NCBI GenBank assembly: GCA_010093515.1
Contig: MU001680.1
Location: forward strand, 1,036,104-1,100,103
Direction: 5' to 3'
Length of the DNA: 64,000 nucleotides
DNA from: Lineolata rhizophorae
Lineage: Eukaryota > Ascomycota > Dothideomycetes > Lineolatales > Lineolataceae
Both the position numbers and the translations under genes were made by a program. Numbering within the stretch: position 1 is the stretch's first letter; each line of letters opens with the position of its first letter. Below the pieces are notes generated by a model. The model was given only the letters and a program-made list of their open reading frames with translations. It made no database searches and was not told the origin of the DNA. Positions 35,475 through 63,074 of the stretch are shown one piece after another.

Positions 35475-37334
35475 GTGTGGGGCAGTAGGAAAAGAAAGAA
35501 GGTAGACCCTCAATTAGTTCTCTGTATTATTAGTGTAGTAAACGGCTTGTTCTGATGGGTTGTTAAGTCTAGACAGATCAGTGGCGAGCGTCGACGTTTG
35601 ACAATATCGTGTTGTCGAAAGCAAGTAGACTGTACTGGAAGGTTACGAAGCAAGCGTGATCGTACGGAAGCCACTGAGCCGCCACGAGCCAATCAGTCTC
35701 TCGCTCCGTAGCTTCTTCTAATAACAACGCGCTTTAAAAATCTCGCAATGTACGTCGACCGGTCCCCGTTACCTTACCCGAATCCCACCCGCCTGATACT
35801 CCGACCCTATCGAGAGATCGTGGCCAGCCAAGGCAGGCTCAGTCCCGTGGAAGGGGTCCTTTAGCTTTTAGTCGTGGTGAAACTAACGTCGTAGCACTGC
35901 ACATAGGGGTTGATTTGAGACCGGGCAACACCACAATTCGATGTGGAACATCTTAGCATGGACTGGGACGGTTTTGCGGAGGAGGAATCCCAAAGCTTGT
36001 TTTGTTAGCTAGCTGAAATTACGGTCGATGTCGAGCATAGACCCCAGTTAAGCGAGGTCAATGAGCGAACGGGATCGCCCGAAGAGGGGGGCGCAGAGTC
36101 GGCGACTGTGTCCTCTAGGCTGCTGCCTGGCGCAGCTCGTCGCTCCTTTCCCTTCACCCTCACCGTCATCATTTGTAGAATGGATCCCGCCAGTGACGTG
36201 CTATGTGAAGGCCTTGATCCCGCGGAGCCTAGAACATATACTGCCCTATCAAAATCCAGTAAAGTTCCTCGCACTACCCTGTAGTACCGCACACACGGAC
36301 GACCAAAAGAAGGCGAAACGCCAACAGTACCCTGACCGCTTCGACACAACAGCGCAGGTCTTTGACATCCGAGCTCAGCCGTGCGCATGGGTTTGAAACA
36401 TGCTACCCAGGAACAATCGTTTGTGATCGCGAAGCTCTTGGAGCTCTACTGTACAACCAGCTTGGCGATCATCGGTCGCTGCAGCAAATGTATGCACGTC
36501 AGCTACGCGCTGCATGATGAGCCGTGGTACCAAAATTAACTGCGATATGATGGTTTGTAGGGGCTCCACCTACCCCCCTCGACAACTCCTCCTCGACAAC
36601 TCCTCCTCGACAACTCCTCCTCGACAACTCCTCCTCGACAACTCCTCCTCGACAACTCCTCCTTCTCGACAGTCCTCAGCATTTTGCATTGCTAAAAGTA
36701 TCTTCTGCATCTCCAGGGTTCCCTCAACTTCATGAATATCTCGCTTCGCTCTGAGATTGGAGTGAACTACGTCGTACAAAGTTAACAGAAGCTCTGTTTT
36801 AAGGAACATGTACTCCCTCTACTTCTCCCAGCATAGCACGAAAGTCATCCACCGCCAAGGAGTACCGAGAGACTCGAGAACAGCAACGAGCCACCGCTTC
36901 GAAATGGCCTCGTGCTGGCAAAGCGGCACCTGATCGTGGAGCGTGGCGCTGAGATTGCTCATCGCCGAGATTGCGAGTTGATCGAGTTAATCGTATGCTC
37001 ACCCCTTGCCATGCATCGACACACTCGCCTCCAACCCGACACATAGTAGGCCTTGGAAGGCTAATCGTATAGGTTCGCTCATTCTTCGGATTTCGAGGCG
37101 GAAGGCAGCGCTGGATCTTTGCAGGTGCAGTTGCGGTCGAGTTGGCAGCAATATGGTTGCTCAAACTTCGGCCCGATCGGATATAACGCGGTTAGAGCAT
37201 TTCTGGCGTTTGCTATCGCGTTATGGTCTTGTGCCCCGTCCATTTCGACTGCCCGATCATCCAGATATACTCGATATATGTCACGAAAGCGGTAGAAGCG
37301 GTCGTAAGTCGCTGATGAAGAGCGCTCAGCCGCG
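35475..37334. other. Intergenic region with a minisatellite, no gene recognised
   Basis: Contains a short tandem repeat (see the 36.58-kb entry) and only short frames without recognisable motifs. The 3' UTR of the CwfJ-family gene lies at the left end and that of the phosphatase at the right end. Confidence 0.5.
36581..36664. repeat. 14-bp minisatellite, six units
   Basis: Six head-to-tail copies of a 14-bp unit, GACAACTCCTCCTC. A further imperfect unit with a 3-bp insertion follows, and the tract then degrades into TCGACAGTCCTC. It lies in non-coding DNA. Confidence 0.9.
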
Positions 37335-38249
37335 CTAACTAGACTGATTCGCGATGAAAGGGTGCTCAATTAACAAGACGTTGCGTGAAGAACTATCTAC
37401 AAGTCGGCGTGCGTGCGAAGAAAAGGTGGGCGACAGTCGCCTAGGCGGCTGTCGCCATGTCAACCAGTTACGCACAACAGTATGGTGGGTGCGCAGTGTC
37501 ACTCCGTGACAATATAGCGCTTTCGGGATCGTTCTCTCGTCATATTCCCATACGTTATATTCAACCTCCTCCCAAATACGAAGTTGCCGTACAAGGTTAG
37601 CACTTGGCTTAACCCTTCTCTTCGTTCGAACAAACTTTAGAGCATCTTCGTAAGTAATGCGGTACTTTCGCATGAGATACGCAATAATGACAGCTGGCGA
37701 ACGCGACCGCCCAGCTTGGCAGTGGACTAATATCGAATTTGTAGTGATTGGAGCAGAGGAGAACTGTAGAGACGATGACAGCCGTAAGACTGGAGAGGCC
37801 ATCTGGTCGATGAAATCGCAAATATCGCTCATGTAGACCAGCGTGTCCAGAGTTGGAGAGTCCTCACTTCTGATGAATATATGGCGGTCGTCTGGCTTCC
37901 CTGCTAGTAACATCGCTCGTCTCCATCCCGTTAAACAGTCGTAGAGTGAAACCATAGCATTAATATGGTTCTTTTGGAGCATTTCTGGGCATACTGAGGC
38001 CGGGACGTCTCCGAGAAAAAGGCCGGGGACAATTTCTGTCATCCATGGATCAGGGTACTTCTTCCTCTCCTCCTCTTTCTTCCCAACAGTTTGTTCTGTC
38101 TCCTGACGGGGCCTGGCGTTGTGAAGATCAGGACTCATCCTGAGTGTGCTTTTGCGGTACAGATAGTTGCGCAACAATGGTGTGGGTGAAGTGAATAACA
38201 ATGCCAAGCCCGCCAAGCCTGTCCTAAGCGCCCATAGCTTGCTCGGCAT
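37335..38249 (-). CDS. Dual-specificity protein phosphatase
   Basis: Cysteine-based phosphatase of the DSP family that removes phosphate from Ser/Thr and Tyr. The frame is 304 residues in one exon. The domain starts at about residue 69 (PWMTEIVPGLFLGDVPAS). A candidate general acid is Asp130 in RSEDSPTLD. The signature loop HCQAGRSRSPAV has its nucleophile at Cys177, and the usual helix YLMRKYRITYEDALKFVR follows. The first 65 residues are poorly conserved in character and begin with a hydrophobic stretch (GLAGLALLFTSPTPL). An internal Met at residue 38 is an alternative start. The C-terminal ~60 residues look unlike a domain, so a missed 3' intron or a decayed tail is possible. Substrate unknown. 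Confidence 0.75.
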   Translation of the reverse strand: MPSKLWALRTGLAGLALLFTSPTPLLRNYLYRKSTLRMSPDLHNARPRQETEQTVGKKEEERKKYPDPWMTEIVPGLFLGDVPASVCPEMLQKNHINAMVSLYDCLTGWRRAMLLAGKPDDRHIFIRSEDSPTLDTLVYMSDICDFIDQMASPVLRLSSSLQFSSAPITTNSILVHCQAGRSRSPAVIIAYLMRKYRITYEDALKFVRTKRRVKPSANLVRQLRIWEEVEYNVWEYDERTIPKALYCHGVTLRTHHTVVRNWLTWRQPPRRLSPTFSSHARRLVDSSSRNVLLIEHPFIANQSS

Positions 38250-45280: not shown

Positions 45281-45390
45281 TGTTAGGACTAGCGTACCCT
45301 AGCCTGTAGCTAACCAACTTGGCCAAAAGACTGGCACAGTATCGCACTTCAGTGCGATGCTGCTGGCTAGGAACAATATACATGCTAACA
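45281..45390 (-). mobile_element. 110-bp TG...CA element, copy 1
   Basis: Runs from TGTTAG to CTAACA, exactly 110 bp, inverted relative to copies 2 and 3. It differs from copy 2 at 5 positions. Flanks are CACCT (left) and CACCG (right), a 4-of-5 match that could be an eroded target duplication. Internal palindrome ATCGCACT/AGTGCGAT. It sits at the 3' end of the FunK1 reading frame, and its terminal TGTTAG supplies the stop codon. Confidence 0.85.
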
Positions 45391-47026
45391 CACCGGGTCG
45401 TTCCTGGCATTGTGAAGGATCTTCTTCGAGGAATAGAGCTTTAAATCAGCTTTTTTCCACCGCCTATCGTTCGGGAATACCGTCCTCCGCAACCTATTGA
45501 CCCATGGCACCAATGTCTTAAAGTACGGCGTGAAGTAATCCTCTGCGATCCGGAGAAAATCGCCCTCCTCGTAAGTCATGCCCTTTTTGATCTCCGCTAG
45601 CGTTTCTGTGGGGAGATAGTTCCACTCCTCAAAGTTTGGAACGACTCTGCTTTTGTCCGGCCTTTCGCAGTGAATGCATATCCAGAACAGGACCCAGAAG
45701 AAGGATTCTAGGTCGCTCATAAACGAATGCTCCTCGCCATAGAGTGCTCCGATGGCCATGAAAGCCCTCGTGCCAATCTTCGCCTGTGCTCCCCAGATGC
45801 CGTCTCTTTGCTCCTTGATGGCGAGATCCAAGTCAATCAAGAACCCTTGATTGTCCTCGCTGATCATGAGGTTGCTGACGGAGATGTCGCTGTGAAGGAG
45901 GCCGGCCTTGCACCACAAGGACTCATTGTTAGCATATATATAGTTCCGAGCCAGCAGCATCGCACTGAAGTGCGATACTGTGCTAGTCTTTTGGCTAAGT
46001 TGGTTAGCTACAGGCTAGGGTACGCTAGTCCTAACACTCATGTCCTTCAATGCAGTCCTCCAGCGCCGCAAGAAAGGATGCTTGATTTCTGGCCATGTAG
46101 ATAGGTTTTCCGTAGTCGCGAAGAATGATACGCCGATGCACTCGATTTGATATTACATTGCTGGCTGACTTCGACGAGGATGTTAAACGGGATCGCTTTC
46201 CGGGCGGCAGAGGAGCGTCAGTATTGCTGACTGGCCGTTTTACGCCAACGGCACTGCCGCGAGGACCGCCAGCTCCTCGCACAAGTCCGAAAACCAACTC
46301 AGGACATCGTCCTGGTTTGCATCCTCTGGCCAACCGGTCCACCCATTAGTAAAGAGTGGTTCGCTGCCTTCTCTACACTTCTTGAAGACAGCTTCGGACG
46401 CTGTCTGGAGGTCCGCCACGCGTCCGAAGTATGTCTCCCGGAGTCGAGGGACCCCGACATGAAAAGGACCGAGCTCCTCCTTGAGAACCTGATCCACGTC
46501 CCGGCGGTATTCGGAAGAGTTCACGAGGCTGCTAGTCTTGTGCTTCCATGGGGTTTGTTTGAGGAAAGAGGCTATCGGCCGGGGAGGCGGGGTGGACTCG
46601 GCGACGGCACCGTAGACTTGATCCAAGATAAGGGCCTCGTCGGGAACATTGGCGATGACTACCTTAAGGAGAGGTTTGACGTGGTCGGGTCGACGTCGCC
46701 GGAGTTGACGGCGAGTATGAGTCTGCCCGTACCGTTGAAGAGATTCCTGTGATTACTGCTCGAATAAAGTAGTTTTTGTAGGTCCATAAGAAGGGCAATG
46801 GCGAGCCTCCGGAGGTCTGCACGATGGTCAGAGGGCCACACTAGGACGAAGCTGTGCTGCCTTTCTTACCTTCCCTGCCAAGCTGTTCTAACGCGTCTGG
46901 AGTACAGGAGATGCCCGCGTCTTCGCAAGTTGAACGGAACGAAGTGCGGAAGGCCCTTCCCGATAGGATTGTTCTCGACGATCTTTGACCCCGATGAGTC
47001 TGCCATTGCAGATGGGGCGGTCTCAA
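45385..47026 (-). pseudogene. FunK1-type protein kinase, frameshifted, internally deleted and element-interrupted
   Basis: Fungal FunK1 kinase family. C-lobe (45960-45391): GLLHSDISVSNLMISED (catalytic loop, HSD in place of HRD), GFLIDLDLAIKEQ (DLD as the metal site), GTRAFMAIGAL, DLESFFWVLFWICIHC, then PWVNRLRRTVFPNDRRWKKA. Upstream (46342-46037) lies VHRRIILRDYGKPIYMARNQ, reached across a 110-bp insertion. The N-terminal family region occupies 46626-46240 (TPPPRPIASFLKQTPWKHK, GWTGWPEDANQDDVLSWF). Further 5' pieces (46841-46659 and 47026-46841) are in other frames. The N-lobe ATP-binding section normally between QDDVLSWF and the Pro/Lys/Arg linker is missing: the two are adjacent near 46250, in different frames. 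The true 5' end is uncertain. Confidence 0.8.
45927..46036 (+). mobile_element. 110-bp TG...CA element, copy 2, with perfect 5-bp target duplication
   Basis: TGTTAG...CTAACA, 110 bp, flanked on both sides by CTCAT (45922-45926 and 46037-46041). Contains the perfect palindrome ATCGCACT-GA-AGTGCGAT at 45959-45976. It splits the FunK1 frame. Deleting the element plus one CTCAT joins codons for EGHE directly to SLWCKAGLLHSD in frame. The TG/CA ends and 5-bp duplication fit a solo LTR of a very small LTR element. A MITE is the alternative. No coding capacity. Confidence 0.9.
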
Positions 47027-47664
47027 GACAAGAGTGATGCATACGATGAAGCTATGATGTACGGGTGAGTTTGTTGAGCCGATGTGTTGGAACTGTGAAG
47101 TTGAAGTGTGTCAGATTTTGGCTAGCGTGCCTAGACTCGTTTATATAGTCAGGGGTGGGTATAGTTTTCTCCGTGCTCCGCCACCTTTCTTTCCGAATAC
47201 AACAGGTCCCTGGCCGAGCCGCCGCCGGAGAAACTTTACTCCAGTTTATTGTTGCAAGTCGCCAGTACGGAGTACCGAAACTGCACTCAGTCCGATAACA
47301 TGTCAAACAGGCATACCCCCGGAATAAGTGCCTGGGAGGTCCTTGCCATGTCCGCAGGAAGTTAACCAATGTCTGTCACAAGCAAGTAGGGTGAAATTAT
47401 GCAGGCCAAGCTCCACGCCGCTTCTACGCTAAGAGACCGAGCTTCACGGCCCCCGCCACGTCAAGTTTCCAGAGCTTCTACGACACGCGGCGCATAGGTA
47501 GATCTTTACTTCTGAACTAGGAAAAGTATAGACTTTCAGCCATGGGAGCGATGTCCATGAGGAGGCCCCCTGGTGATATTATGCTCCTTTGCTACGCTCC
47601 TCGGCTACGTGCTCCTATGCTGCTATTGTACTGTGCTGCGTGCTCCTCCCGTGTAACGATGCTG
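47027..47664. other. Intergenic region, no gene recognised
   Basis: Lies between the FunK1 5' pieces and the squalene synthase 3' end. Short frames only. Confidence 0.5.
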
Positions 47665-49119
47665 TTACAATTCGCCGTGGCCTACGTACGCGTTCGCTAT
47701 GCTTCCGACCGCGCCTGAGAGCTTGGGTGGGGAGAGGTTGCCTCGCTTCAACTCTGCAAAGGCGACGCCGAAGTGGACACCGGAGAACCAAGCCAGGCGG
47801 CGCCAATCTATCGTGTCCGTTAGCCTTGCGCTCCAAACGGGAAGGGCGCCTCTTACCATCACAGCCGTGATAACACCAAGCGTTGCAACCGCCAGGTACA
47901 TCACGCCCTTCTTTCGTCTCCGCTTCCTGCGCCTTTCTCTTCGCCTCTTCTTCTGGGAAATGACTCTCAATGAAACGCTCAATCTTGCCGCAGGCAATGT
48001 TAATTTCGAGGAAATGGGGGTCGCCGGATTTGTTCTTCCTACAGATCTTCCTCGCATATTGCCTGAACACCTCGCAGACAAGTTGAAAGTCCTGAGTTGA
48101 TTCGATCATGATTTGGCATGCTGAGCCTTTCGAGATCTTGACGTTCCGGTCGAAGAGTGCCGGGTTCTGGAAGCAGAGCTCGAGCGTCGCAATGGCCATG
48201 GATTGTGGAATAGCGACGAAGTTGAAGATTGACTGCTCCTTGACGCCTGCCATGTAAGACAGGCATTCGTCTGCTCTGTTCAGCGCCATGAGCACCATCT
48301 CGCTGCTGCATTGCAGTGCCTTCTCCCGGTTTTGCGGCAGGAAGAGATCGCTGAACTTTTCCACGTACTTGGACCACACCTCCTTGGGCCAGAAGTATCG
48401 CTTGGCGTCGTAATCTTCCCGAATGTCGCGGATAATGTTCGTTTGCTGCAGGAGCTGACCCATTGACTCCATCAGCTCAGGTCTCTGCAGGAGGAGCGCC
48501 GGGTTCGCGAAGTTAGCCTCGACGAACAGCCGTGTTAACCCTTCGCCAACGACTCCCGCAACATAGTGGCAGTACAGCTCGTAGTCCTTGATGGTCCTGA
48601 CACTGATACCGTTGGCATTGTCATCCGCCATTTTTGCGTAGTCCGCCATGCCATTGCCCATTTCTTTGGCAATGTCCTTAATGATGACCCTGTACTCGTC
48701 CTTGAGCTTGTTAAACTCTCTGGCTACGCAGTCAAACTTGACGAGCACCTCCCTGTCCTTCTCTTCGGGGCCGTTGCCGTCGAAAGTCCACTTCTCGTCG
48801 TCGATGTGGGTGTAGAAATTGCGTAACAAGGGCTCCTTCTCCTCGATGCTGATGGTCATGTCATCCTCGACGGTGTCGAGACCGCGGAGAACGAGATAGA
48901 AGACGACTACCGGCAGACGCAGCTCGGGTGAAGCTCTTGAGTGACAGCTACAAACGAGCGCGACGTCAATTCGAGGAAGCGGTAGCATTCCTTCACGTTG
49001 CGCGATTCCTTGCTCTCATCGCACGGGTGGACGGGTTTGCGCCATATCATCCACCGGATGATGGCGCGCAGCTCTTGGACGTGGAAAAGGTAGTAGACAA
49101 CACCTCTGGCGGACGGCAT
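47665..49119 (-). pseudogene. ERG9: Squalene synthase (ERG9-like) with apparent frameshifts
   Basis: Joins two farnesyl diphosphates to squalene at the ER, the first committed sterol step. The start MPSARGVVYYLFHVQELRAI (49119) and [11 protein letters not shown] are in one frame. From [17 protein letters not shown] the next frame takes over, because CACCCGAGCTGCG (near 48928) lacks one base. Conserved sites are intact: LDTVEDDM (first Asp motif), [29 protein letters not shown] (second Asp motif), YFWPKEVW. The C-terminal membrane helix ([16 protein letters not shown]) is in yet another frame from ~47912, and [18 protein letters not shown] follows. A possible 49-nt intron (GTAAGA, GCTAAC, GATAG) lies between them. 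Through that intron the main frame would rejoin the C-terminus but lose the helix. It is either a decaying copy or a gene with sequence errors. Confidence 0.75.
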
Positions 49120-49504
49120 CTTCGCGGCGAATGGGCCGAAAGTGATTCGACCGTCGCCGAAGTCGTCGCGTCGCGGCTCCAAAACGCTCCTAAGTGTTTG
49201 CAGTGGTGGCCGGTTGTTTCGAGGGACCCTTTGCAAAGGCGAAAGGCATAATTCAGGCGGTGTGGCATTTGATCCTTGTATGTAAGACGGCGACGGATGC
49301 CAGAATGCGGGCTGTTTACTTGTGCGCTCCGTATCTAGCGTATGTAGTGTGTTTTGTTTTCTGCACGCGATCGTACGTTGCAGGGGTTGAGCCGACTCAC
49401 CACTCGCCCCCGCTTTCCACGTCCAAGAACCTCCCCGCCAACGCCCCTACTACATGTAGCCCCGAACACCTCACTGACACTCCTAACTCCCACCACGCAG
49501 CCTG
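49120..49504. promoter_or_regulatory. Divergent intergenic region between the ERG9-like gene and the ISG12-like gene
   Basis: 385 bp between start codons of two outward-facing genes, presumed to carry both promoters. I did not identify a convincing sterol-regulatory element. Confidence 0.5.
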
Positions 49505-50032
49505 ATGGATTCTATCCGCAACGCCCTCGGCGGCGCTCAGCAGTTCCTCCACAACGCCGCTATTGACACGTGCGGCAGAATCGCCGCCGTCGAGTGGGAG
49601 CAACTCCCTAGGCAGACCCAGGACTACGTAACCCAACACCCCTATCAAACGGCCTTTTACGTGAGCAATGGCCTTGTCTTCGCCGCGCCCTTCGTGCTCG
49701 CGGGGCCGCTGCTAGGAGCGGCCGGGTTTACGGCTGCTGGGCCGGCCGCTGGTGGGTCGTGCTTAGATGTTCCCGCTTTCCATTGCTAGCACTTTGTTTG
49801 TTAACGCGAGTAATGGTTGTTATGGGCAGGTTCGCTGGCCGCGGGGGTACAAGGGCCTTCCGTTGCGGCAGGAAGCTTCTTCGCGGCGCTGCAGAGCGCA
49901 GCAATGGGAGGATACGGCGCGGCGGTTGTGGGCGGCGTTGTGCAGGGTAGCGCGGCGGCTGGGACGGGGGCGGTGGCGGCTTGGAACTTCTTTCGTGGTG
50001 GAGGGGTTGGCGACGGCGGGAATAACAGTTGA
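49505..50032 (+). CDS. ISG12/IFI6-27-like small membrane protein
   Basis: Two exons (49505-49751 and 49830-50032) with a 78-nt intron (GTGGGT...GGCAG, phase 1) give 149 residues and a stop. The N-terminal half is soluble (MDSIRNALGGAQQFLHNAAI...). Two Gly/Ala-rich hydrophobic segments follow: YVSNGLVFAAPFVLAGPLLG running into AAGPAAG, and SFFAALQSAAMGGYGAAVVG with VVQGSAAAGTGAVAAWNFF. This small-residue helix pattern is that of the ISG12 family, known in animals as interferon-inducible mitochondrial or ER proteins and present without known function in many fungi. Identity is by pattern and recalled family sequence. Confidence 0.75.
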
Positions 50033-52404
50033 CGGTGACGGTGATGGCGGCGACAATGACGACAGTGATGACTAGGACGATCCGGATCAGACCGTCTACA
50101 TGATGCGGTGTGAAGTCTCGGTAAGGGTGTTCTTCGGCGTTAGGGACGACACTGCGTTTACATATCTGATGGAACGACTATATAGCTAATTCATGAGGGC
50201 ATTGTGAGGGCCTAGTTGGCTTATACGATATGTAAACTCATTGGCTCAAAGCAAAGTACTATCTAGTTCCAATAACGAAAACGCTGGCAACTATGAATAA
50301 GCTGCAAAAGCCTCCTTCGCCAACTGTAGAAGCTCAAAGCGTTTCTGCGAAGTTCTCACGTGCCGAATTTTGGCCAGCAACCAACGCCGAACATTCCTCT
50401 CCTATACCATCTCATAGGTCTCCTCGAAGGAATCATCCGAGAACAGTGAACCTTGAAGAATGTCTTACTCTATCATCCGACAGAGATCGATGCTCTTGTT
50501 GATAGGGCCGCTTTCCTTCTCACCCACGCGCTTTCCCATAAAACTACCCTGTCCCTCCAAGAGCATTGTGTGCTCGTAAGGAACGCTTTTTAGCTCTCGG
50601 CTTTTGGCCGGACGGCGTGGGGTCGTGGGATGTAGTAGACGTTGCGAACGACTTCCGGCGGAGTTTCGAAATGGACTTCTGTGCAAGCGAAGAACTCATA
50701 ATAGCGGCATTGCTGGCATGGGGTGCATTTCCGACGTCACACGTTGACTTCGCAGGTCGGTGACGGGCGACCGCCTCAATCTTCTAGGATTATGAACAAT
50801 GTGGAAATCCTGCAGAGGATGGCGGTACGTCACGCTGCGTCCCGCCGACGAAGGATTTGGCGCATCGACCTACGCAATTAGCGTGCGCCCGCACCGCATC
50901 ACGAGCACCCGCACTGCATCACGAGCATGACTTTGGCGATTCAAGAGCGGATCTAAACCTCGCCGTTCCCATTTTCCCGTACGACTAGCTAACGGTAGTC
51001 GCGCTACGCTACGCTACCTGACGGGGCCTGGCACCCCCGATCCCGAGCTCATTATCCGCAGCCGCGGCCCCGCAAGACGCAAAGTAGAACAGCAACGCAA
51101 GGAAGGCAAACCCCTGGTTCGACGAAGGGCTTCATTATTCCGCCCGTCCGCGACGACCCCGCAGCGCTCGCGCCAGGCTGCCGCGGCGAGCTGCGCGCTG
51201 GCGCCTTTGCAGTCGGGGGCGGAGGGGAGAGAGCGGCAGACGGTTGTCCGATCGAGGACGCAGGGCCGTGAGGGGAGAAAGAGAAAGGGGAGAAAGGGAA
51301 ATTGAATAAGGAAATCATTTCATGCAAGTTCCGTTCATTTGTGGCGTTTCGTCATCATGAGGTGGTACTTTAGTAGACAGAGGAGACACATGCCGGGCAC
51401 GAAAGAGAAAGCAACCGCAAGCACACGAGAAGAGTGAGGCGGAAAGTGGAAGGGAGAAATGGGTAACAAAGAGAATGAGAGGAAAGGTCATTCGGGTAAG
51501 AGAAAGCGCATGGGAAGGCCCGGGGCGGGGGAACAATTACGCCCGGCAGGCCGATGCAGCAGGAAATCGAAAACTCGAAAAGCAATGGGAGACTTGTCAT
51601 CGTAGCGTAAGAACAAGGAAACCCAGAGGACAGCGGTGCACGAGACGCTTCTTGCTCTCACAGAACAGCCCAGACAAAAGCCGGGCAATGTCTAAGTGAT
51701 ATTCCAGAGAATGAGAAAAGCGGGCTAGCCCGAACCGCATGCCCTTCTTGCCGCCGACCTTCTCCGACTCCGTTGAGCCGGACCCTAGGCCAGCGGCACC
51801 CCCAAGACCTCCACGAGTATTAAAGTAGTTACTTGAATTCCGGGGTTTTCGTCGGCATGTTTTTCGTAAAAGCCTGGGGAGCGCTCGTGGTGTAGTCATC
51901 CCGTCTCTAACAGAACTCGTGTCGGTTGCAAAACTCCGAAAAAAAAAGGGGGGGGGAAGGGGGGAAGACTGCGTCCTACAAAGGGGCACAAAAGAGAAAA
52001 CGTAGCACGCGTCGGCTGGAGAACCGCGGTATGACCATGCAGCAGCCGATGCGAATAAGTGCAATGGGAAACAACACAGAAATGAAAGAGGAAAGTTGTG
52101 AATCGGAATGGCGGGAACGCCGCACCGAGGCGGAAACATCCTCCTGCCCCGGGTCTTAGAAGTAATCAATAGTACCGGCCGGATGCCCGATGGTGAATGC
52201 AATGGCGACGGTGTCCGTCGATTATAGGGACGCCCGATCGGAGTACGCCGGCGCAGGAACGGACCTGGCGCACAAAAACGCTGTCGATGCTCATCAAGAC
52301 TTTTTGGCACCCCTCGGCGGGGTGCGTGGTTTCAAACGCGGGATAGACCGGTCCCCAACTCCGACAATATGCAACTGACACGCTGGGCGTTCCCAGCAGG
52401 GTTT
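50033..52404. other. Intergenic region, no gene supported
   Basis: Holds the 3' flank of the ISG12-like gene and the probable 3' UTR of the 655-residue gene. Includes a short direct repeat (GCATCACGAGCA twice near 50900), a TACGC run near 51006-51018 and an A-run/G-run at ~51940-51960. A 237-codon minus-strand frame (52310-51597) is compositionally biased and overlaps these runs, so I do not call it. Confidence 0.5.
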
Positions 52405-54372
52405 TTAGTACTTGTGCCCGAATGCGCCGAGGCGCTCTTCGAACGAAACGGGAGGCTCGAGGTTATGATGGCCCGAAAAGCTGCGCGGAAAGGTGTTGCT
52501 GAAGCCCTTGGGCGAGAATGGCGAGCCGAGGCGACGGATCTGCTCTCCGGGCTGGGTCTGCGGCGGCATCAGATAGTCTGCGCTCATGTCGTTGGCGACG
52601 ATCTGCGGAAGGGGCTGGTCGGTCGGAGCATCCGTCCCGTTGGCGTCGTCGTCCTCCGCCTCGGCAGACGGCGGCGTGAAGATGGACGAAAGAGACCGGT
52701 TGCGCGCGCCCTCACCCATGTCTCCGAGACTGAACCCACGGCTACGCACACGGCGATGGCTGCTCTCCGCGGGGGCGCCGAAGAGCTCGTGCAAGAGGTC
52801 CTGCCGAAGGCCCGGGGGGGCGTCGTCGAGGTGAAACTGAGCGCGGCGCTTGAAAGAGCGGGGCAAAGGAGCCGGGGCGTGCAGTTCGAGAGGAGGGCCG
52901 AGCACGACGGGGCCGCCGGCGTCCGGGCCTTGGACCCCGAACGACGGCGGGTGATTCACGGCGTTCTGAGCCTGGCCGACAAACTCCGGGAAGAACGAAG
53001 AACCGAGCTGGCGCGCCTGAGGGTGCGACTCCAAGCCGCCCAGCCCAAGCCCGAACTGGAGAGACTGCGACTTCTGGTGAGCCGGCGAGCGGCCGGTCAT
53101 CGGCTGGGCAAACTGCGCTTGCCGCTGGGGACGCGGCGTTTCTTCCTCCGCGGCCAACTGCGAGAGGGGATTTCCGTATTGCATGGTGGCCGAAGTGCTC
53201 GTAGCCAACGACAGGCCCAGGTCGCGAGAGAAGTTGTCGTGCCCCTCCGAGGGACCGAACGAGGCGTGGTCGGAATGCTGCGCGCCAAGGTGGTGGTTGG
53301 GGCTCGACTGGAACGGCGAAGGGCTCCTCGACTGGAGCAGGCGGCTGTAGTGGGCGCTCAGATGAGGCTTGCGCTTGCACAGCTCGCGCAGCCTGCGGCG
53401 AACGCTCGACTCCGAACGGGGCCAAGGGGGGTACGATTTGCGAGGGTCCGATCCCGTGGGCGTGCAGCTGCCGCTCCCGGAGGCCTTGATAGTGTCGGGC
53501 GAGCCGGACTTGACCGAGGACTGAGCGCGGCCGGGGACCAGAGGCTTCCCGCCCTTCCAAGTCCGCTTGGCCTCGCGAACGACCCGATGGCAAACACCCA
53601 AAGGCGGCGCGGTTCCCGGGAGCATCTTGAAAGGGGTGACGGTGGGGTCCTGGACGTATTTGATGTAAGTCACCCAGAGATGCTCGTCCATCTCGGGCGT
53701 CAAACTCGACGCGTTGCGGATTTTGAATCGCTTGTTCGGGTTGGGAGCACGCTCCCGGAGCGGCGACGCGAGCTCCGGCATCTTCTGCGAAGCGTTGAGG
53801 AAGGTGAAGGGGTCCGAAACGTCGCTCTCCGGACTGGTGCAACTTCCTCCGTAGGAGCGGAGCGAATCCAGAGTCCCGCGCGAGGAGACGGACGAGTCGG
53901 AAAAGCCGGAGCACGAAGACGAAGGTCTAGAGATGCTCTCGCCGGCGGACGCAAACCGGTCGTCCTCCCAGTTGTTGCGGTACGCGATGGCGGTCTCCAT
54001 GGGCGTTCCGATCTGGCCCAGAGGAGTCTTGGGAGGGGAGAACACGCGCCGGGCGTGAGTCGGTGCGAGGAGACCTCGGGAAGGCTCGCCCTCGGACATG
54101 AAGGCCTGCGGCGCGGACGGCTGCGAGCAAACTTCGGTCGCTTCGATCGTCGGGATCGGGACGTCGGCACCGGCCATGGCCGGCTCGGGGAAGACGATGT
54201 CGGAACGGTGCGGGCGGCGGCGGCGCACGCGCAGCATCTGCTTGGGCAGCTGGGGCGGTTCCGGCCGCGGGCGATTCTCAGGTTCGGGCGTCTTCGGCAG
54301 CTGGCCGTCCGTGTAGTGGAACGTGAAGTTCCGCGGGAGCGTGATCGACAGCTGCGGCTTGCCGGACGGCAT
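52405..54372 (-). CDS. Conserved-type fungal protein of unknown function (655 aa), putative nuclear regulator
   Basis: I do not recognise a named family. The start at 54372 was chosen because it begins a coherent protein (MPSGKPQLSITLPRNFTFHY); the frame is open far upstream only because of GC-rich sequence. Seen: a Pro/Arg-rich N-terminus with a basic patch (MLRVRRRRPHR), Ser-rich segments, a compact block near residues 228-275 (MDEHLWVTYIKYVQDPTVTP, then PPLGVCHRVVREAKRTWKG) that looks like a small helical domain, a second basic block (SSVRRRLRELCKRKPHLSAH YSRL near 325-345), and a long disordered C-terminus with SxSP and RSFKRRAQFHLDDAPPG motifs. No signal peptide or membrane span. The basic patches and disordered tails suggest a nuclear regulatory protein, but this is inference. 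The long upstream non-coding region is consistent with a heavily regulated gene. Confidence 0.7.
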   Translation of the reverse strand: MPSGKPQLSITLPRNFTFHYTDGQLPKTPEPENRPRPEPPQLPKQMLRVRRRRPHRSDIVFPEPAMAGADVPIPTIEATEVCSQPSAPQAFMSEGEPSRGLLAPTHARRVFSPPKTPLGQIGTPMETAIAYRNNWEDDRFASAGESISRPSSSCSGFSDSSVSSRGTLDSLRSYGGSCTSPESDVSDPFTFLNASQKMPELASPLRERAPNPNKRFKIRNASSLTPEMDEHLWVTYIKYVQDPTVTPFKMLPGTAPPLGVCHRVVREAKRTWKGGKPLVPGRAQSSVKSGSPDTIKASGSGSCTPTGSDPRKSYPPWPRSESSVRRRLRELCKRKPHLSAHYSRLLQSRSPSPFQSSPNHHLGAQHSDHASFGPSEGHDNFSRDLGLSLATSTSATMQYGNPLSQLAAEEETPRPQRQAQFAQPMTGRSPAHQKSQSLQFGLGLGGLESHPQARQLGSSFFPEFVGQAQNAVNHPPSFGVQGPDAGGPVVLGPPLELHAPAPLPRSFKRRAQFHLDDAPPGLRQDLLHELFGAPAESSHRRVRSRGFSLGDMGEGARNRSLSSIFTPPSAEAEDDDANGTDAPTDQPLPQIVANDMSADYLMPPQTQPGEQIRRLGSPFSPKGFSNTFPRSFSGHHNLEPPVSFEERLGAFGHKY

Positions 54373-57300
54373 TTTGACCGCGCGGGAACGGAGGGATGCG
54401 TGCGTCGATTCGTCGATCAGCGCGAAATGGCCGGGCTTCGTTTCGTTTCCTTCCTTGTTTTCCTTTCTTTTTTTTTTTGTTCTTTTCGGGCTTTGCGCGC
54501 CCTCGGTTCCCAAGGCGCGACTTAGGGATGGAGGGCGCTCCGGAGGGACGTGCGGGGGGCTGCAAGGAGAGTCGGCCGAAACAGCCAAAAACGTCGTGCG
54601 GCCGCGGCGCAAAGAGTATCGGCCAACCGTGAGGCGCGAATTCCGATTTTCCGGGGATTTCGGGGTTTTCGAGTTCCCGCGGGACGGGCCCAAGCTTAGG
54701 AAGGCGCGCACGCGGTGGCAACTACCCAATCCGGCGCGGGAAGAGGGGGACTCCAAGCAAGCGGTCGAGGACGGTCGGAGGCGCGGGCGGGAAGTCGCAC
54801 GCCGGTTCGCGAAAAGAGCTCGAGGCAAAATTAAGGAGCAGCGGGCGCCGCGACGTTGACGGGCGCGCGCGACGGTTTTTCTCTTCTTCTCCTTCTTCTT
54901 TTTTTTTTTTTTTTTTTGAGGGTCGACAAATGGGATGAGGCGAGCGTCTGGCGGAGGCGGTCGGGCGGTGTCGTCGGGCGGGGAAGAAAAACGAGCGGAC
55001 CGCGCGGGAGGGGGCGACGGCTCCAAGACGGGCCCGGGGCGCCCAAAAAAAGCGTCCTGAGGCGCGGGAGACGGAGGCGCAAGTCGCACGCGGTCACACC
55101 ATAGCGCGAAGGACGGCGGGCCGGCGGCGGCGACGAGGAGCTGGCGACGAAGGGAGAGCGAGGGTGTGCGGCGCCGGTCGGCGGTGGCTGGGCGTCGCCG
55201 GTGACGGAGGATGCGACGGGGCGCGCGGGCGCGACGGCGGCGAGCGGAGGCGACGGGGCGCGAACGGAGAGGCGGACGGACCGAGGCCTCCTCGCGAGAG
55301 AGCGGGCGCGCGACGGGCTCGAGGCAAGGGCCGGAGGGGAGCGCGAGAGGGCGGTGGTGATGGTCGGGCGGTCGAGGCGCCGGGCGTGGAGGATGGGGGA
55401 GGTCGTGGGCGCGGAGGAGCGTCGAAGGGCGGGCGGGCGGGCGGGCAAAGCAGGTCCCGGGGCCGGGTCGGAGGCCCGCGCTCGCCGCGCTAAGGCAGGT
55501 GCGCGGCCAAGCGAGCGGCGGGTCACCTGCGGGCGGCCGCGGTCGGGGCCGGGCGCGGCGACGCTTCACCGCAACACGGCGGCCTCGGGCGGCGGCCGGG
55601 GCGGGAGACGACGAGCGATCGGGAGGCCGGCAAGGAAGGCGAGGGCCGGGCGAGGGGAGCGGCCGCAAACGAGGGATGGGGAGGGAGGGCGGGAGGAGCG
55701 AGAGCGCGAGCGACGAGCGTGCGGCGGGTTTAAGGGTTGCCGGGAGCGGCAGCTCCTGGCGCGGGCGTGAGACCGGCGGGCGGGCCAAGCTGGGGCGGCA
55801 GTAGCGCGGGCGAGCGAGGGCCGGGGCCGGCGTGACGCAGCGCCAGCTCCGCATCCGCCTGCCTGCGCGCATGTACGTACGGACGTGCCTGCAGTCTGCG
55901 GTGCACGCCAGCTCTGCTCCTCGGTGGCCCTGCGCGCCGCCGTCCGCCGCCGGCCGCCGCAGGGGCTCATGCTCGCGCGCGCGCTCGAGTCCTTCCCCCT
56001 CGTCCTCTCAGAAGGCGCGCTCCGCCCGTGGGACCGCCCGCAGCAGGCCGGCCCGCGGGTCGCGGGTCGCGGGTCGCGGCGCGCCGTCGCCCCGGCTCGT
56101 CCCCGTCCGATTGGCGTCGCTGCGTGCTACGTACCTACGTACTACATACGTGCTAACCCACGTAGCGGACGGCCGCAGCCCGGCCCCGGCGCCGCCGCCG
56201 GATCGCGATGGCTCGAGCGGAGCCGGCAAGCCACAGGGCAGGAGAGGCAGAACGAGATGCGGCGAAAATGCCCGAACGGCCAACCGGGGGGGAGGGGGGA
56301 GAGGGCGACGAGCGACCAGCGGCGCCGATCGGCAGACGCATGGCGCACCCGGGGGGCCACCGCGGACGCGTCGCTGGCCCGCGGTCCAAGGGCCCGCTGC
56401 CCCCCCGGACAGAGAGAGAGAGAGACGCGGCGCGCGCCCGAGGACCATCGTCGCCGCTCCCTCCTGCGCAGCTCCGCCGCCGAGACTCGCTCGCGCAATC
56501 GCTTCGATCCCTTCGAAGGACGTCCCGCCGGCTCGCGGGAAGCACCCCGGACCGGCGCGCGCGCGCGTGCGCCCTCGGCGGGGCGCGGCTCCCGCCGGTT
56601 GCGCGTCCGCCGCGCGCCGACGCCGCCTAGCGCCCGACTTTCGCGTCGCGCGCTAGCCCCGTCCGGCAAGGCGCGGGCCCGGCCGGGGGGGGGGGGCGAG
56701 ACGCGTTCCCGCCCGGCCCACGCGCCCCGCGGCTGCGCTGCGACAGCCCCCCTCTCCCCCCGGCTAAGCGTCGTGTTTCGCCCGCCGCCGCCGCCGCGAC
56801 CGCCTCGAAGCGGCGCGGTGCAGGGTTTCGGGACCGATGGGACTCGCATGCGCGGACGGGCGCCGCGTCCCTCTCCGCCTCGTTCCCCTGAGCGAGGCAG
56901 GCGTCGCGCATGCCTACGTAGGTAGTACGTACGGCCGCTCGAGCTGCGAGCTCGCCGCGCCCCGCCGCCGCGGAGCGTGAGGTGGCATGAGGAGGAGCCG
57001 CCGCGTAGCCGGCCCGCCAAGGTACGCAGCACGCAACTTGCTGCGCGGGCAGCTAAGCCGCGCCGTTGTTCCCTTTTGCTTCCGTGAGCGTTGGGGGCGG
57101 CCGCGTGGTCGCCAATCTTTCGCGCGGCGCTGCGGAAGGGGCGAAGGACGTCGAAGTTCGAACGACGCCCTCCCTCCTCCTGGTCCGAGGCTTCGAGATC
57201 CCGAAATGAGAGGGAAAAGGAGATGAAAGAGGGAGCCGGCGAAAACTCGCGATTGGCCGACCGCGAGCGCCGGCAGCAGCCCGGCCGTTTTCAGGCCTTC

Positions 57301-59900
57301 CCGCGCCGTCTCTCCCCCCGCCGCCACCGCCGGGCGGCTCTGGCCCGAGCCGTGCGAGAGGCTATCGCAGGCAAGCTCCGCTCCGCGCCCGTGGCACGTT
57401 CGTGTGTTCGCCGCTCGACCTACTGTACCAGACTCCTGGCCGGACGAAGCCGCGACGCCGGCGCCGGGTCCGGCCGCGACCGTGGAGAAGCCCGGCGCCG
57501 AAGTTCAGGTACATAGGTGTACGGCGCGCCCTCCCCGCAGATGCTCAGGGACCAAGGCGACGGCAAAGGGCACGGACTGGCGCCCTTTTCCCCTGCCTCG
57601 ACCATATCGATAGATACACGCTGTGTGCAGCGCACACACGTACTTTCCCAAGCCTCCTCGGCCGCACCCCGAGTCTCTTCCCGAGACTTCTCGAGCCCGG
57701 TTGCGCCACCTCGGGGCCCTGACTGCCACCGGCCCGCGAGGTATGCACCTACCTACCTACCTATGTGGTACGGCGCCGTCCCCCCGGTCCTGAGGGCTCG
57801 CGGCCGGGCACGATCGTCGCGATACGCACGGATGGCTGCACGGCCCATTATCGCGGGCGGCGTCCGTCGTCTGGGTCGGTCGACACGTCGCTGCTCGTGC
57901 GTCCTCCGTTGCTCGTGCGTCCTCACAGGCGTATGTGCTCCTACGTACGTGCATCGGCTTCAGGTAGCTGGCCGCTGGGAGGTCCGCCGCGTCCGTCGTA
58001 CGCCGGACGATCGCACCCGAAACAGCCCGGCCGGCGTCAGTTCTGGGGCCCGCAGCAAGTCTCCCGTCCCGGATAGGTGCCCGGACCGTCTGGCGCGGGA
58101 GGGAGTTGCGCCATCCCCAGAGAACCGTTCCGGCCTTCCCTCACCCGCACTGCGTATGTACCTATGCATTGGTGCCGCAGCTTTTTATTTTCGATCGCCC
58201 TCTTTTCCCCCGGCCGGGGCCAATCACCGCGTCCGTCGCGCGTTTCGATTTTGCGCGCGGTCCACTAGGATGCGCCGGTCGTCCGATAAAAAATGAAATT
58301 CCGGTGGCTGGGCGACGGGCGGGGCCCAGGCCCCGGTCTCGATCCATCCGCGCCCATCCCACGCGTGCGTTCGCCCCCGAACGGGCCTGGCGTAGGGCAC
58401 CGGACGGGGACACGGGAGAGGCGCCGCTACGGAGCAGCAATCGACAGGCTGCGAAGCCCACTCCCTTTTCTTTCCCCGTCTCGCTCTGCGGCCGCCTGCA
58501 CGCGGGCGCGGGAGCGGCCCCGGACGGCCGCTATGCACGTAGCGGTAGCGGCCTCATCAGCGCGGCGCAACATGCTCCGTTTTGGGGCGCGCCGGGCGGC
58601 GGAGGGAGCCAGACGGTCGCCACGGCGCCGGGGACGGAAGCGGACCGCGATGAGGCGAGGCGAGGCCGGACGCAGCGAGCGTGGGGGCCGTCGGCGAGGA
58701 TGAGACTCCCGCCGCTACGCTCGCGTCCTCGCGGGGTTGACGACGGACTGACCGTAAGCCATCGAGATCGGACCATTCGCCCGTCCCCGCCGTCCAGCAC
58801 GACCCGTCGCGTCTTCTGCAGATGCGGCGGCCGGCTGCCGCTGCGGCAGGAAATCCGGACAGATGATGCGGGTTGGGGTGCGGAGGAGGCGGTGGGGACT
58901 CTGACAGGCGGGGCCGAGTGCATACTGCGGGCAGCTGGCCACGTCTCGCGGGAGCCCAATCGCGGCCGTCAATTGAGGCCGTCAATCAGGCATGCCGTCC
59001 TGCTTGCGCCGGCGGGCGACGCTTCTTCGATTCCAGTCGTCGGCGGCCGCGCTGCTTTGCTGCTTGTGCCGTGCCGCTTGCTGCATGTACCCCGCGCTGC
59101 GGCACGCGAGTGAATGTCCCACCCCACCGATTGCTTGCTAAGCCGAGATCTTGCCTTCCCTTGTCCGGATACATACCAGCGCGAGCCGTTTCTTTCGGCG
59201 TCATTTTCCTTTTTTTCAATTCCCCTCGGAATCTAGACCGATTTCCTTTTGTTTGTTCGTTTCTCGTTCCGCCGTCGTTCGGGCTCCGATTCCTATGTAG
59301 CTCGTCACGGCCAAGAACTGCGCTCAGCGGAACTGCCCACATCTTGCGCCTTTGCCTCTCGCTCCACACCAGCCCGGTCTTTTTCAATCTCACACAGACT
59401 GTTGGTGCGCGGAGCGGAGCTTGACGGCACTTTAGTGCCTTGGCAAACCTCTAGCGTGACAGTCCTACAACGACGCACACCCCCTGACTCGTAGCTAAGC
59501 TTCGCCCTCTCGCGCGGTCTCAGTCGTACAGCAGTCGGTGACCACCCTTAGGAAAGTGTCTCTGTGTGCTCACGCCCTAGCAATCCCTGTGCCTTTCTGG
59601 AGTCCCGGACGTGGAACAGCTGTCGGATCTTTTTCTCTTCGCGGAAGGAACCCTCAACGATTCTCGCGGTGCGTCTATCGCCTCATGGACCGACCCCTGT
59701 TTGTTCGTTCACTCGTCTGTCAAGCGGCATCATCGCCAAGAGGTCTACGTTACCGCCAACACGCGGCCTACCACCTCAACTAAGGGACCGGCCTGCCACT
59801 ACTCTGGATAGGTCACCCCGGTCACCTTCATCTGACGTCTCCGAGCCACTGACGGCCGAGCCCATAAACGACAGTTCCGATCAACCCGACTTGGCAACGC
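54373..59900. promoter_or_regulatory. Very GC-rich 5.5-kb non-coding region upstream of the 655-aa gene
   Basis: Many long overlapping frames exist on both strands, but all are Arg/Pro/Ala/Gly-rich products of GC bias, and I see no motif. Notable non-coding features: a ~20-bp T-run near 54898-54918 within a pyrimidine tract; a G-run near 56687; and recurrent TACGTA/CCTACCTA-type motifs near 55873, 56128-56151, 56912-56936, 57507, 57746-57765, 57942 and 58153. Composition returns to normal after ~59100. It probably includes the promoter and 5' leader of the 655-residue gene. Confidence 0.55.
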
Positions 59901-59934
59901 CGCCGACAGGCGCGAACTCGATCCCAATGTCTAC

Positions 59935-60960
59935 TTGTTAAACCGTACGATGGCTCCGGCAATGTTCAGGGTTGGATCTGTCAATTTGAACGCTGGTTCT
60001 TCTAACGCTTCCACGCCGATCACCCTGCTGAGTATGTACGATACTTGGACCAGTCCCTCGAAGCAATTGCTGCTGAGCGGGCCGACACCGATTACATCGT
60101 GAAAGATATTCTCAACAAGGGCCCTAGCTCGATTACGGAGGCCGATCAAAAACAGTCCAAGACTCCTCGTTAAATGCATTGATTCTAAGCCCGAGGACAT
60201 CTCCGTCATCGAGCGAAAACTCTGCGCTACCACGCAACGGCCCCCTGAATCGCTCAATGAATACTATCGTCGTGTTGTCTCTCTCCTGCGGCAGGTCGAC
60301 CAATCGGCAACCGCCGCTCTCACGGACATGACCCCCGGATCACGCTTCGGTTTCCGCATGATCATGTACAAGTTTGTCGAAGGCATCCGCGACACAAGAT
60401 TGGCCTTGGAAGCTCGCGAGGAACTTCGTCATGAGGACATATCCTTCGAATCTGCTTTCCGGCGCATCGAAGCAATCAAAGATAATATAGACGTGGAGCA
60501 GCGGATCAAGGAAGAGCTCGATAGGCGCACGAGCCCTCAGTTGGCAGGGCAATTGACGAAGAGCGCTCAAGGACAGAACCCTCGCAACCTTCAGGACACT
60601 TCTTGGTACGATGCGTTCGACATGACGAGTCAGCCAATTTTGGACGGCCTCGAACGATTCACGCCGTACGATGATAACAATGAGCTGTCCATCGCACCGG
60701 GCAGCTCCCTCTTATCGGCAGGGCATAGACGAAACTCCCGGAAATCTTTTGCTAACTCGAGCTTCCCTTTTAAGCTTCGGCAGTGTCTCTATTGTTTTTA
60801 CATATCTATTTGCTACCATGGTACGTGGAGCCTTTGGGCCCTGGTAGCGGTTATAAGAATGCACCGGCAGTACTATGTTTGGACATGCCCACCATCGGCC
60901 GCCATCTTCGCGGTTCAAACCCCACAAGCCCATGTAGCATTTTTCCGGAGCCTAGCTTAG
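59935..60960 (+). pseudogene. Retrotransposon gag-like fragment
   Basis: Reading through two frame changes, the sequence gives DGSGNVQGWICQFERWF, then a stop, then HADHPAEYVRYLDQSLEAIA, then (other frame) ISVIERKLCATTQRPPESLN and EYYRRVVSLLRQVDQSATAA, then MTPGSRFGFRMIMYKFVEGI and RRIEAIKDNIDVEQRIKEEL. The order (wrap-around helix, ESLxEYYRRVxSLL, then FVxGIxDxRL) resembles the capsid part of fungal gag-like proteins. A lone CLYC near 60782 could be the start of a lost zinc knuckle. No protease, reverse transcriptase or integrase follows. Confidence 0.5.
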
Positions 60961-61599
60961 GCCAAGGCCCGCTAGACTTGTCCTTCAGGACGGCGCCAAA
61001 ACCGCAGAGTAACTAGGTTAAAGAGTACGAATAAACAACGAATCTGATCCTTCGGTTTTGGCTTGCAGTATTCACATCCAGAAACTCTTAGCCGGTGTGT
61101 GTCTAACTTTCATCATTCAGTTAGGTCCCTCGGACGCCCACCATCACCTCTTGTGAGAGTCGCTCTGGCCGAACGTAGCACGAAAGGGGCTTCTCTTCTA
61201 TTGTCGTGATCCCCGGGCAGCCCCACTGAAGGTTCTAACCAGTAGAATATTCTCGATTGGCCAGGTGCATGTTACTCTAGCAGTGCAGGTAAAATGTATA
61301 CTTCAAATCTAACCGTGCTAACTTATCCTGCTCTACTACTAAGTTTTCCACTTTCCACTACTGTAGGTAAAAGTGAAATAGTTACCCACTGTACGAAGAG
61401 CACACCACTCAGACCTTAGTATCTACGTCAGTTGAACGATAGAGCGAGAGGTTACAGTATAACTGCTTGAGTAGTGGCCTCTGAGAGGGCAGAGTCAAAG
61501 CTTAAAATCGTACTGAAGCAAAGTTTGACGCATAATCCACAAGTCTGATCCACACAGGTCAATGACCCACTCCACCACCATCTCTCACCCCCGACAGCC
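60961..61599. other. Non-coding region between two transposon remnants
   Basis: AT-leaning; no frame with a recognisable motif. Confidence 0.5.
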
Positions 61600-62650
61600 A
61601 ATTTCTCAGCCAATTCTTGTCTGATTTTAATGATTCGAGCCACATTCTACTCTGTAGTTCTTTGACTATTGGCCTGATAGGTTCTAGAGCTGTGTCCTGT
61701 CTGTTTGCAGATGCTACAGTTTCTGATTGGCTTGGTGACCCCGACCATGATAGGAGTATCCTGAGCCATTTCATGCTTTATGTGAGCTCCAATAGCCAAG
61801 AAATTAGCTCTCTCTTGTCCCTCAAGCACAGTAAGTGGTCTATTACCCTCTAGAAACTTTCTCTTGCGATGTTGGCGCTTGGAGAGTCTCTTATTGGCTT
61901 CTCGGAGGTGTCGGAGCTCCTCCGCCATCAATACTATCTTAGCTTGCGCCTCAACCCCCTTTCGAAGGGAATCCAACGCATCTAACATAGGAGTTGGGGA
62001 GATATCCCGGTGCCTTTAAATGCTCGTTCTGATGAGCTGCGTCCGACAGTCGAATTCCTAATGGTTTTGAGGTGTCTAAGACTCCTAGGTGAAAGGGTGA
62101 GCTGCCGGGGATGTCAGAGTCCTGAGCTTGACATCCAGCTTTGAAATGACTACCTCTGGATCAAATGGTACTAGTCTAGAGCCTCTGAAAGCTCCCTGGA
62201 TATTCTTCTCAGAGAGAATGCGGCTTGAAAAGTATCTTTGAATGCTGGCAGAAACTCTTCCTTGGAGATATAGATGATGTAGCATCTTATGAGCTTCTTA
62301 ATCTGCTGTTCAGAGTATACTTTCAATGGGCTAAAACAGCTAATATCCAGAGGCTGAGTGAGATACGATGAATATGCAGGCAAGGAGAGGTATATAATCT
62401 TATAATCTTTGTAGAATTTATCGAATTTAGCAGAGTTGTAGCTCTTACAATTGTCCAGGCTAAGCATTCTCCACGACCTAACTGTCCTATAGCTTATATA
62501 CTTGTCAAAGTGTTTCAATTACTCAAAACCAAGCATATCGTTGGTCCAGCCAGTCTTACTAATGACTATAACCCAGTCCTCAGGCAAATTGTACTCCTTA
62601 TACGAGGAGAGGAGCTGTTTCTTGAAGGGTAGGATGACCCAGCGGAAAAG
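61600..62650 (-). pseudogene. Pogo/Fot1-type DDE transposase, degraded
   Basis: Read on the minus strand from about 62650: PEDWVIVISKTGWTNDMLGF, a TAA where Trp is expected, then LKHFDKY (62518 onward). RMLSLDNCKSYNSAKF follows (LDNCKSY in place of the usual LDGHxSH catalytic region). LPAYSSYLTQPLDISCFSPL is a strong family signature, then EEFLPAFKDTFQAAFS. In shifted frames come NIQGAFRGSRLVPFDPEVVI (~62205) and, toward 61650, a charged coiled segment LREANKRLSKRQHRKRKF. The series ends at CSICKQTGHS, like the C-terminal zinc-knuckle tail of these transposases. Stops and frameshifts throughout; no inverted repeats located. Confidence 0.8.
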
Positions 62651-62964
62651 AGGACAGGATGGGTAAACTAATAGCAGGGCCAACTAGGGGAGGTACAGGG
62701 CATACAAATCCGCTAAACAGCTCTACAAGAATGGCGAGAGGTATGGCACAAACGCCTATCAAAGGCCTATTAGGACACGATCGAAGAAACCCTACACCGT
62801 AAACACCTCCGACGATATAAACAGTTTAGAAAGGCGGAGAGCTCTATCTCATTATCCAAGGACGAACAAGGTATATAGGGCTCGCCGTCTTCCTAGCTAA
62901 AGCAAGGGTCCTATAGTTCCTAACTAGACACTGCTAATGTGGTAGGGGCTACCAGACACCCCCG
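62651..62964. other. Transposon-derived non-coding remnant
   Basis: Between the transposase pseudogene and copy 3 of the 110-bp element. Charged short frames but no identifiable family. Confidence 0.4.
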
Positions 62965-63074
62965 TGTTAGCGTACACATAGTTCCTAGCCAGCAGCATCG
63001 CACTGAAGCGCGATACTCTACCAGTCTTTTGGTCAAGTTAGCTAGTTGCAGGCTAGGGTACGCTAGTTCTAACA
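62965..63074 (+). mobile_element. 110-bp TG...CA element, copy 3
   Basis: TGTTAG...CTAACA, 110 bp, same orientation as copy 2, with 15 mismatches to it, mostly transitions. The internal palindrome has one mismatch. Flanks (CCCCG and CAGAG) do not match, so this is an older copy or one that lost its duplication. Confidence 0.85.

Follow-up and report, generated by a model that had tools for sequence, protein, structure and literature searches.

The long terminal repeats (LTRs) of retrotransposons end in TG...CA and are accompanied by target duplications of 4-6 bp. Comparable ends are described for DNA transposons of the Ginger2/Tdd group, which, in the part of the published account drawn on here, have TGTNR termini, terminal inverted repeats (TIRs) of ~50-180 bp, 4-5-bp duplications (5 bp in TDD-4 and TDD-5), an AT-rich RTATAY target preference and one reported fungal vestige (PMC2836005). 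Among ascomycetes, the available portion of a survey of Mycosphaerella graminicola assigns 5-6-bp duplications to 2 of 13 families of miniature inverted-repeat transposable elements (MITEs) (PMC4522978). Here we describe a 110-bp repeat with TGTTAG...CTAACA ends, of which three copies lie in a 64-kb window of Lineolata rhizophorae DNA (the whole stretch analysed, forming the end of contig C11 in a genome of 31 Mb and 48 contigs). A first-pass annotation of this stretch had preferred to see in it the solo LTR of a terminal-repeat retrotransposon in miniature (TRIM), with a MITE as the alternative. The boundaries and 5-bp duplication it described hold, and its alternative fits best, whereas the preferred interpretation found no support among 13 directly repeated pairs. 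The family is best read as a MITE, a common type of element, which we assign to no superfamily, and a DDE integrase-type transposase making a 5-bp staggered cut probably moves it in trans.

The 110-bp family is like the M. graminicola MITEs in being short and noncoding, in its 5-6-bp class of duplication and in its ascomycete host, end sequences being left out of this comparison with the part of that survey at hand (PMC4522978), and differs from them in that the unit's own inverted repeat spans only 6 bp. The 5-bp duplication therefore has a fungal precedent. With Ginger2/Tdd, as far as the excerpted account goes (PMC2836005), the match extends to the TGTTA ends, the 5-bp duplication and, in two long forms only, TIRs of 70 and 132 bp. 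However, no Gypsy-integrase-like transposase free of a reverse transcriptase was found among three matches to the rve integrase profile in a search that was not exhaustive, and TATA occurs in only 1 of 30 perfect duplications (TATAC), unlike the RTATAY preference. The family thus appears to resemble Ginger2/Tdd on these features, and because of the missing transposase and the different target preference we do not claim membership. A third comparison is with TRIMs (PMC6934838) and solo LTRs. TG...CA ends and a 5-bp duplication are features of LTRs as well, but no two direct repeats enclosing an internal domain occur among the pairs tested here, and the larger forms are inverted.

Copies in the window and across the genome

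Copy 1 lies at 45281-45390 (minus strand), copy 2 at 45927-46036 (plus) and copy 3 at 62965-63074 (plus). Read directly from the sequence, each is 110 bp long, starts with TGTTAG and ends with CTAACA, as the first-pass annotation had it, and all three have the central palindrome it noted, ATCGCACT..AGTGCGAT, the second arm being AGCGCGAT in copy 3. Its counts of 5 differences between copies 1 and 2 and 15 between copies 2 and 3 are reproduced after orientation, when copies 1 and 3 differ at 14 sites; copy 1 is inverted relative to the other two, on which the annotation was silent. The single perfect duplication it reported belongs to copy 2, which is bounded by CTCAT on the left (45922-45926) and right (46037-46041). 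The duplication of copy 1 is imperfect (CACCT/CACCG, 4/5), and that of copy 3, the more diverged copy, is not recognisable, with three mismatches across the 5-bp flanks.

Copy 2 splits a fungal-type protein kinase gene (Pkinase_fungal fragment, 45388-46342, minus strand) between profile positions 300 and 301. Searched on its own, one side matches positions 251-300 of the profile and the other positions 301-387, and the kinase reading frame continues once copy 2 and one CTCAT are removed.

The genome-wide search proposed with the first-pass annotation located about a hundred places. A blastn comparison of the fetched genome stretches places the family at 103 sites, some of them pieces of one copy, and this is a lower bound, as at least 10 further places known from end-pattern position lists lie outside the fetched set; 71 of the 103 are copies with both ends aligned. 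A DNA search of the genome with copy 2 gave at least 41 matches (40 of 93 candidates scored). Allowing up to three mismatches, the 3' end pattern has 62 matches in the whole genome and the 5' end 85, while the reversed patterns have none, and from these counts the similarity of the three copies is far beyond chance. The 3' end of a second subfamily has 78 genome matches, many at places already counted. Length is uniform: 110 bp in 49 of the 71 copies and 111 bp in 13 (together 62/71), the other nine ranging from 89 to 115 bp. Both TGTTAG and CTAACA are present at the ends of 53 copies, and TG and CA at those of 60. Copies diverge from the per-column majority by a median of 6.4%, with transitions making up 478 of 544 changes. 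Complete copies form seven pairs without a single difference along the unit, and in six of these pairs the two copies lie on different contigs; this argues for recent movement, and judged by these sequence identities the family has probably been active recently.

The ends of the unit are sharp and lie at TG/CA. Across the 71 copies identity is ~0.9 just inside the ends and 0.25 to 0.26, the level of chance, in the flanks, with no extension past 110 bp on both sides. Target duplications, which the first-pass annotation had proposed to tabulate, were assessed in the 70 copies whose ends both align and whose flanks can be read, the 71st running into N. A 5-bp duplication is perfect in 30 and has one mismatch in 14, compared with 0.1% and 1.5% for swapped flanks. 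The same test yields 2/70 at 4 bp and 0/70 at 6 bp, so the duplication length is 5 bp. Perfect duplications are commoner near the majority sequence and rarer in more diverged copies (8, 10, 6, 4 and 2 per bin of 14, nearest the majority first, and 0/1 in the leftover bin), and the exact duplications show no obvious target motif.

An origin from a tRNA or small RNA was rejected, as ARAGORN (bacterial code) detects no tRNA in the four loci L031, L004, L045 and L057, which also lack Rfam matches at E values up to 0.1. An exact 20-base core has no match in a prokaryotic contig set or in a viral set, which has little bearing on a fungal element.

Paired units, long forms and the internal palindrome

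Within 25 kb of each other, 35 pairs of fetched places were examined, 13 of them direct and 13 in minus-plus orientation. Direct pairs around an interior with one outer duplication, for which the first-pass annotation had suggested looking, were not found among the 13. No outer duplication is common to the members of 12, and the one exception (C10:1046569-1046980) is one copy into which an element of another family has inserted. At least two of those 12 look like pieces of one copy (C38:72038/72153; C10:395791/395848). The test covers the fetched places; position lists put at least three further direct pairs outside them, among them C13:997954 with C13:1011046, C19:220446 with C19:235985 and C5:781651 with C5:782070. 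For a primer-binding site there was no identified 5' LTR to look behind, and the flanks of the 71 copies are mutually unrelated.

A perfect outer duplication is present in two of the 13 minus-plus pairs. The long form in C25 (425570-425971, 402 bp) has inverted arms identical over 132 bp and the outer duplication TGGAA; two complete units lie outside its interior, and the arm identity runs 22 bp past the unit. That in C12 (918997-919792, 796 bp including a nested insertion) has inverted arms identical over 70 bp and the outer duplication ATAGA. The outer ends of both are CTAACA ends in inverted orientation. Their interiors are noncoding and related to one another, with more diverged relatives in C3 and C38. 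Inverted arms enclosed by one outer duplication fit a DNA transposon with TIRs; the normal route of an LTR element does not yield this arrangement. A third candidate for an inverted composite, C6:209873-210266, was rejected and is read as two separate insertions. Elsewhere, at ~1700-2540 of locus L057 (C38:49500-56200), there are tandem diverged copies of the long-form interior, ~70% identical, interspersed with fragments of the unit's 3' end.

Perfect identity of the arms was considered as proof of arm-to-arm copying, and this argument is weakened by how frequent identity is between unlinked copies. The 20 copies that match copy 2 at 94% or more form 190 pairs, of which 7 show no difference across the whole unit and 46 none across the last 70 bp. 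The two C25 units agree fully not only with each other but with the unlinked copy C13:945480.

The palindrome within the unit is 8 bp long, and each of its eight arm pairs keeps Watson-Crick pairing in 60 to 67 of 69 copies. Inside it a two-sided change is confined to the innermost pair (C-G in 7 copies), and one pair outside it has also changed on both sides (T-A in 3 copies). Such changes are so few that they make no strong case for selection on a hairpin; folded as single-stranded DNA, copy 2 has an unremarkable z of -1.2. The break points of several truncated copies fall at or near the palindrome, at unit positions 40-41 and 53-54 (C11:580802-580887, C19:408834-408977, C19:235985-236165, C12:919723 and C8:419478), perhaps reflecting a fragile hairpin.

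Resident transposons and other features of the window

The rve profile (PF00665) has three genome matches. Those in C33 and C18 sit beside reverse transcriptase, ribonuclease H and chromodomain sequences and are of the Gypsy chromovirus type, and the third, in C41, lies in DNA that shares 87% identity with C33 along 2.6 kb. RVT_2 gives one match, a Copia element near 307 kb of C3, for which no integrase was listed, indicating that the rve search was not exhaustive. A 110-bp unit ~4 kb from the Copia match has its own duplication and Copia is accordingly disfavoured as the source, though the Copia LTRs themselves were unread. The presumed 3' LTR of the C33 chromovirus, TGTCACGG...CCGTGACA, ~328 bp long (the 5' LTR being unread), is unrelated to the 110-bp unit beyond TGT..ACA.

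Of the four matches to Dimer_Tnp_hAT, the two best have CAGGGTGG ends, with an 8-bp duplication at one of the two, and a hAT partner was rejected as the source on these grounds. In the pair itself (C38:82847-83053 and C42:67745-67951), near-identical where compared, the open frames are 713 and 712 aa long, and the two hAT transposons are perhaps recently active. MULE was rejected because it has no match in the genome search. No autonomous relative with the same ends, which not all definitions of a MITE demand, was found among the end-pattern matches listed. Stretches of N are present in 17 of 99 loci and could hide a full-length or autonomous element.

A second short family, ~235 bp long with TGTCAC...GTGACA ends, has 32 genome matches, several at contig ends, and its terminal bases resemble those of the chromovirus's presumed LTR. 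It is represented in the window at 37279-37511 (5-bp duplication ATATA), and outside it at C12:919474-919708 (GCATG) and C10:1046723-1046943 (TTGGT). The gene content of the window includes Pkinase_fungal, squalene/phytoene synthase and CwfJ and points to a filamentous fungus. On the minus strand a single open frame of 7637 aa occupies 2945-25858; neither half has a Pfam match up to E 0.01, and we take it, as a guess, to be a giant, probably disordered fungal protein.

Origin and movement of the family

The 110-bp family is short, noncoding, present in many copies of uniform length and associated with a duplication of fixed length, all of them features of MITEs. In the mechanism we favour, the noncoding 110-bp DNA element, with its TGTTAG...CTAACA ends and internal 8-bp palindrome, would depend on a DDE integrase-type transposase that acts in trans and whose cuts are staggered by 5 bp, and the larger relatives of 402 and 796 bp, which keep the same ends as long TIRs, would have moved as single units. 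Several observations weigh against this view. The inverted repeat of a lone unit is only 6 bp (TGTTAG), and past it the similarity of the ends is weak, its score being reached by 123, 278 and 37 of 2000 shuffles in copies 1 to 3 respectively, or by 186, 1852 and 95 when the hairpin is also left out. In many copies TGTTAG is followed at each end by a CCTAGCC block (at least 121 matches, and 6 for the reversed pattern), a shared block picked after the fact. The 5-bp duplication has two or more mismatches in 26 of the 70 copies, complete members of the long forms included. Searches with the four profiles rve, RVT_2, Dimer_Tnp_hAT and MULE yielded no transposase with TGTTAG ends and no autonomous or coding element bounded by them. 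The two remaining points bear directly on LTRs: all but 3 of the 13 direct pairs have at least one incomplete member, which limits the power of that test against them, and purine-rich AAGGGAGAGGA stands 4 bp upstream of the unit at three places, with a two-mismatch form at a fourth, so that in the long forms this tract before the unit could be a polypurine tract.

That purine tract is among the evidence for reading the units as solo LTRs of a very short TRIM-like retrotransposon whose interior was lost by LTR-LTR recombination. TG...CA ends, a short inverted repeat and exact 5-bp duplications lacking an obvious target motif would all agree with such an origin, lone units with their own duplication are expected of solo LTRs too, and the genome does house LTR retrotransposons (chromovirus-type Gypsy copies and one Copia reverse transcriptase). 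We nevertheless regard it as unlikely, through absence of support rather than disproof, as direct pairs with a common outer duplication are lacking apart from the split copy, both multi-unit forms that have a common outer duplication are inverted, the presumed chromovirus LTR is unrelated to the unit, and the unit near the only Copia match has a duplication of its own. The resident elements could instead have supplied the enzyme alone, a DNA element mimicking LTR ends being moved by the integrase of a chromovirus or Copia retrotransposon with no dedicated transposase. TGTNR ends, 5-bp duplications and the location of the rve matches in chromoviruses suit this proposal, as does the TGTCAC...GTGACA family, in which 5-bp duplications go together with terminal bases of the chromovirus's presumed LTR. 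We judge a borrowed integrase improbable, however, because the ends of the 110-bp unit have only TGT..ACA in common with that LTR, and because the duplications of the TGTCAC...GTGACA family rest on three places only.

The long forms allow two further explanations, both of which we hold to be very improbable. Independent 110-bp units that flank a segment by chance might mobilise it, in the manner of insertion sequences in composite transposons. The C25 form, with two complete units outside its interior and one outer duplication, has the shape this predicts, and the match of its units to unlinked C13:945480 means that copying within the element is not required; but its arms are identical for 22 bp past the unit, and the relatedness of the C25, C12, C3 and C38 interiors indicates one lineage and not chance pairs. 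Alternatively, a transposon lineage with LTR-like ends might spread both as the 110-bp unit and as inverted-arm forms, using an integrase-type enzyme and perhaps arm-to-arm copying, with the palindrome seeding a hairpin or foldback. Copying of this kind is not required, since identity between unlinked young copies is common. Such a lineage, if real, would link LTR retrotransposons with Ginger-type DNA transposons within an ascomycete-like fungus.

The MITE reading, with movement in trans, is therefore the one we retain, and for it the two larger relatives of the 110-bp element are instructive. TG/CA ends with a 5-bp duplication are easily mistaken for LTR integration, and it is the arrangement of the larger relatives that separates the readings. 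With no enzyme for it found in the genome, this clean fungal MITE, which has TGTNR ends, duplicates 5 bp and was probably active recently, offers a place to look for one.

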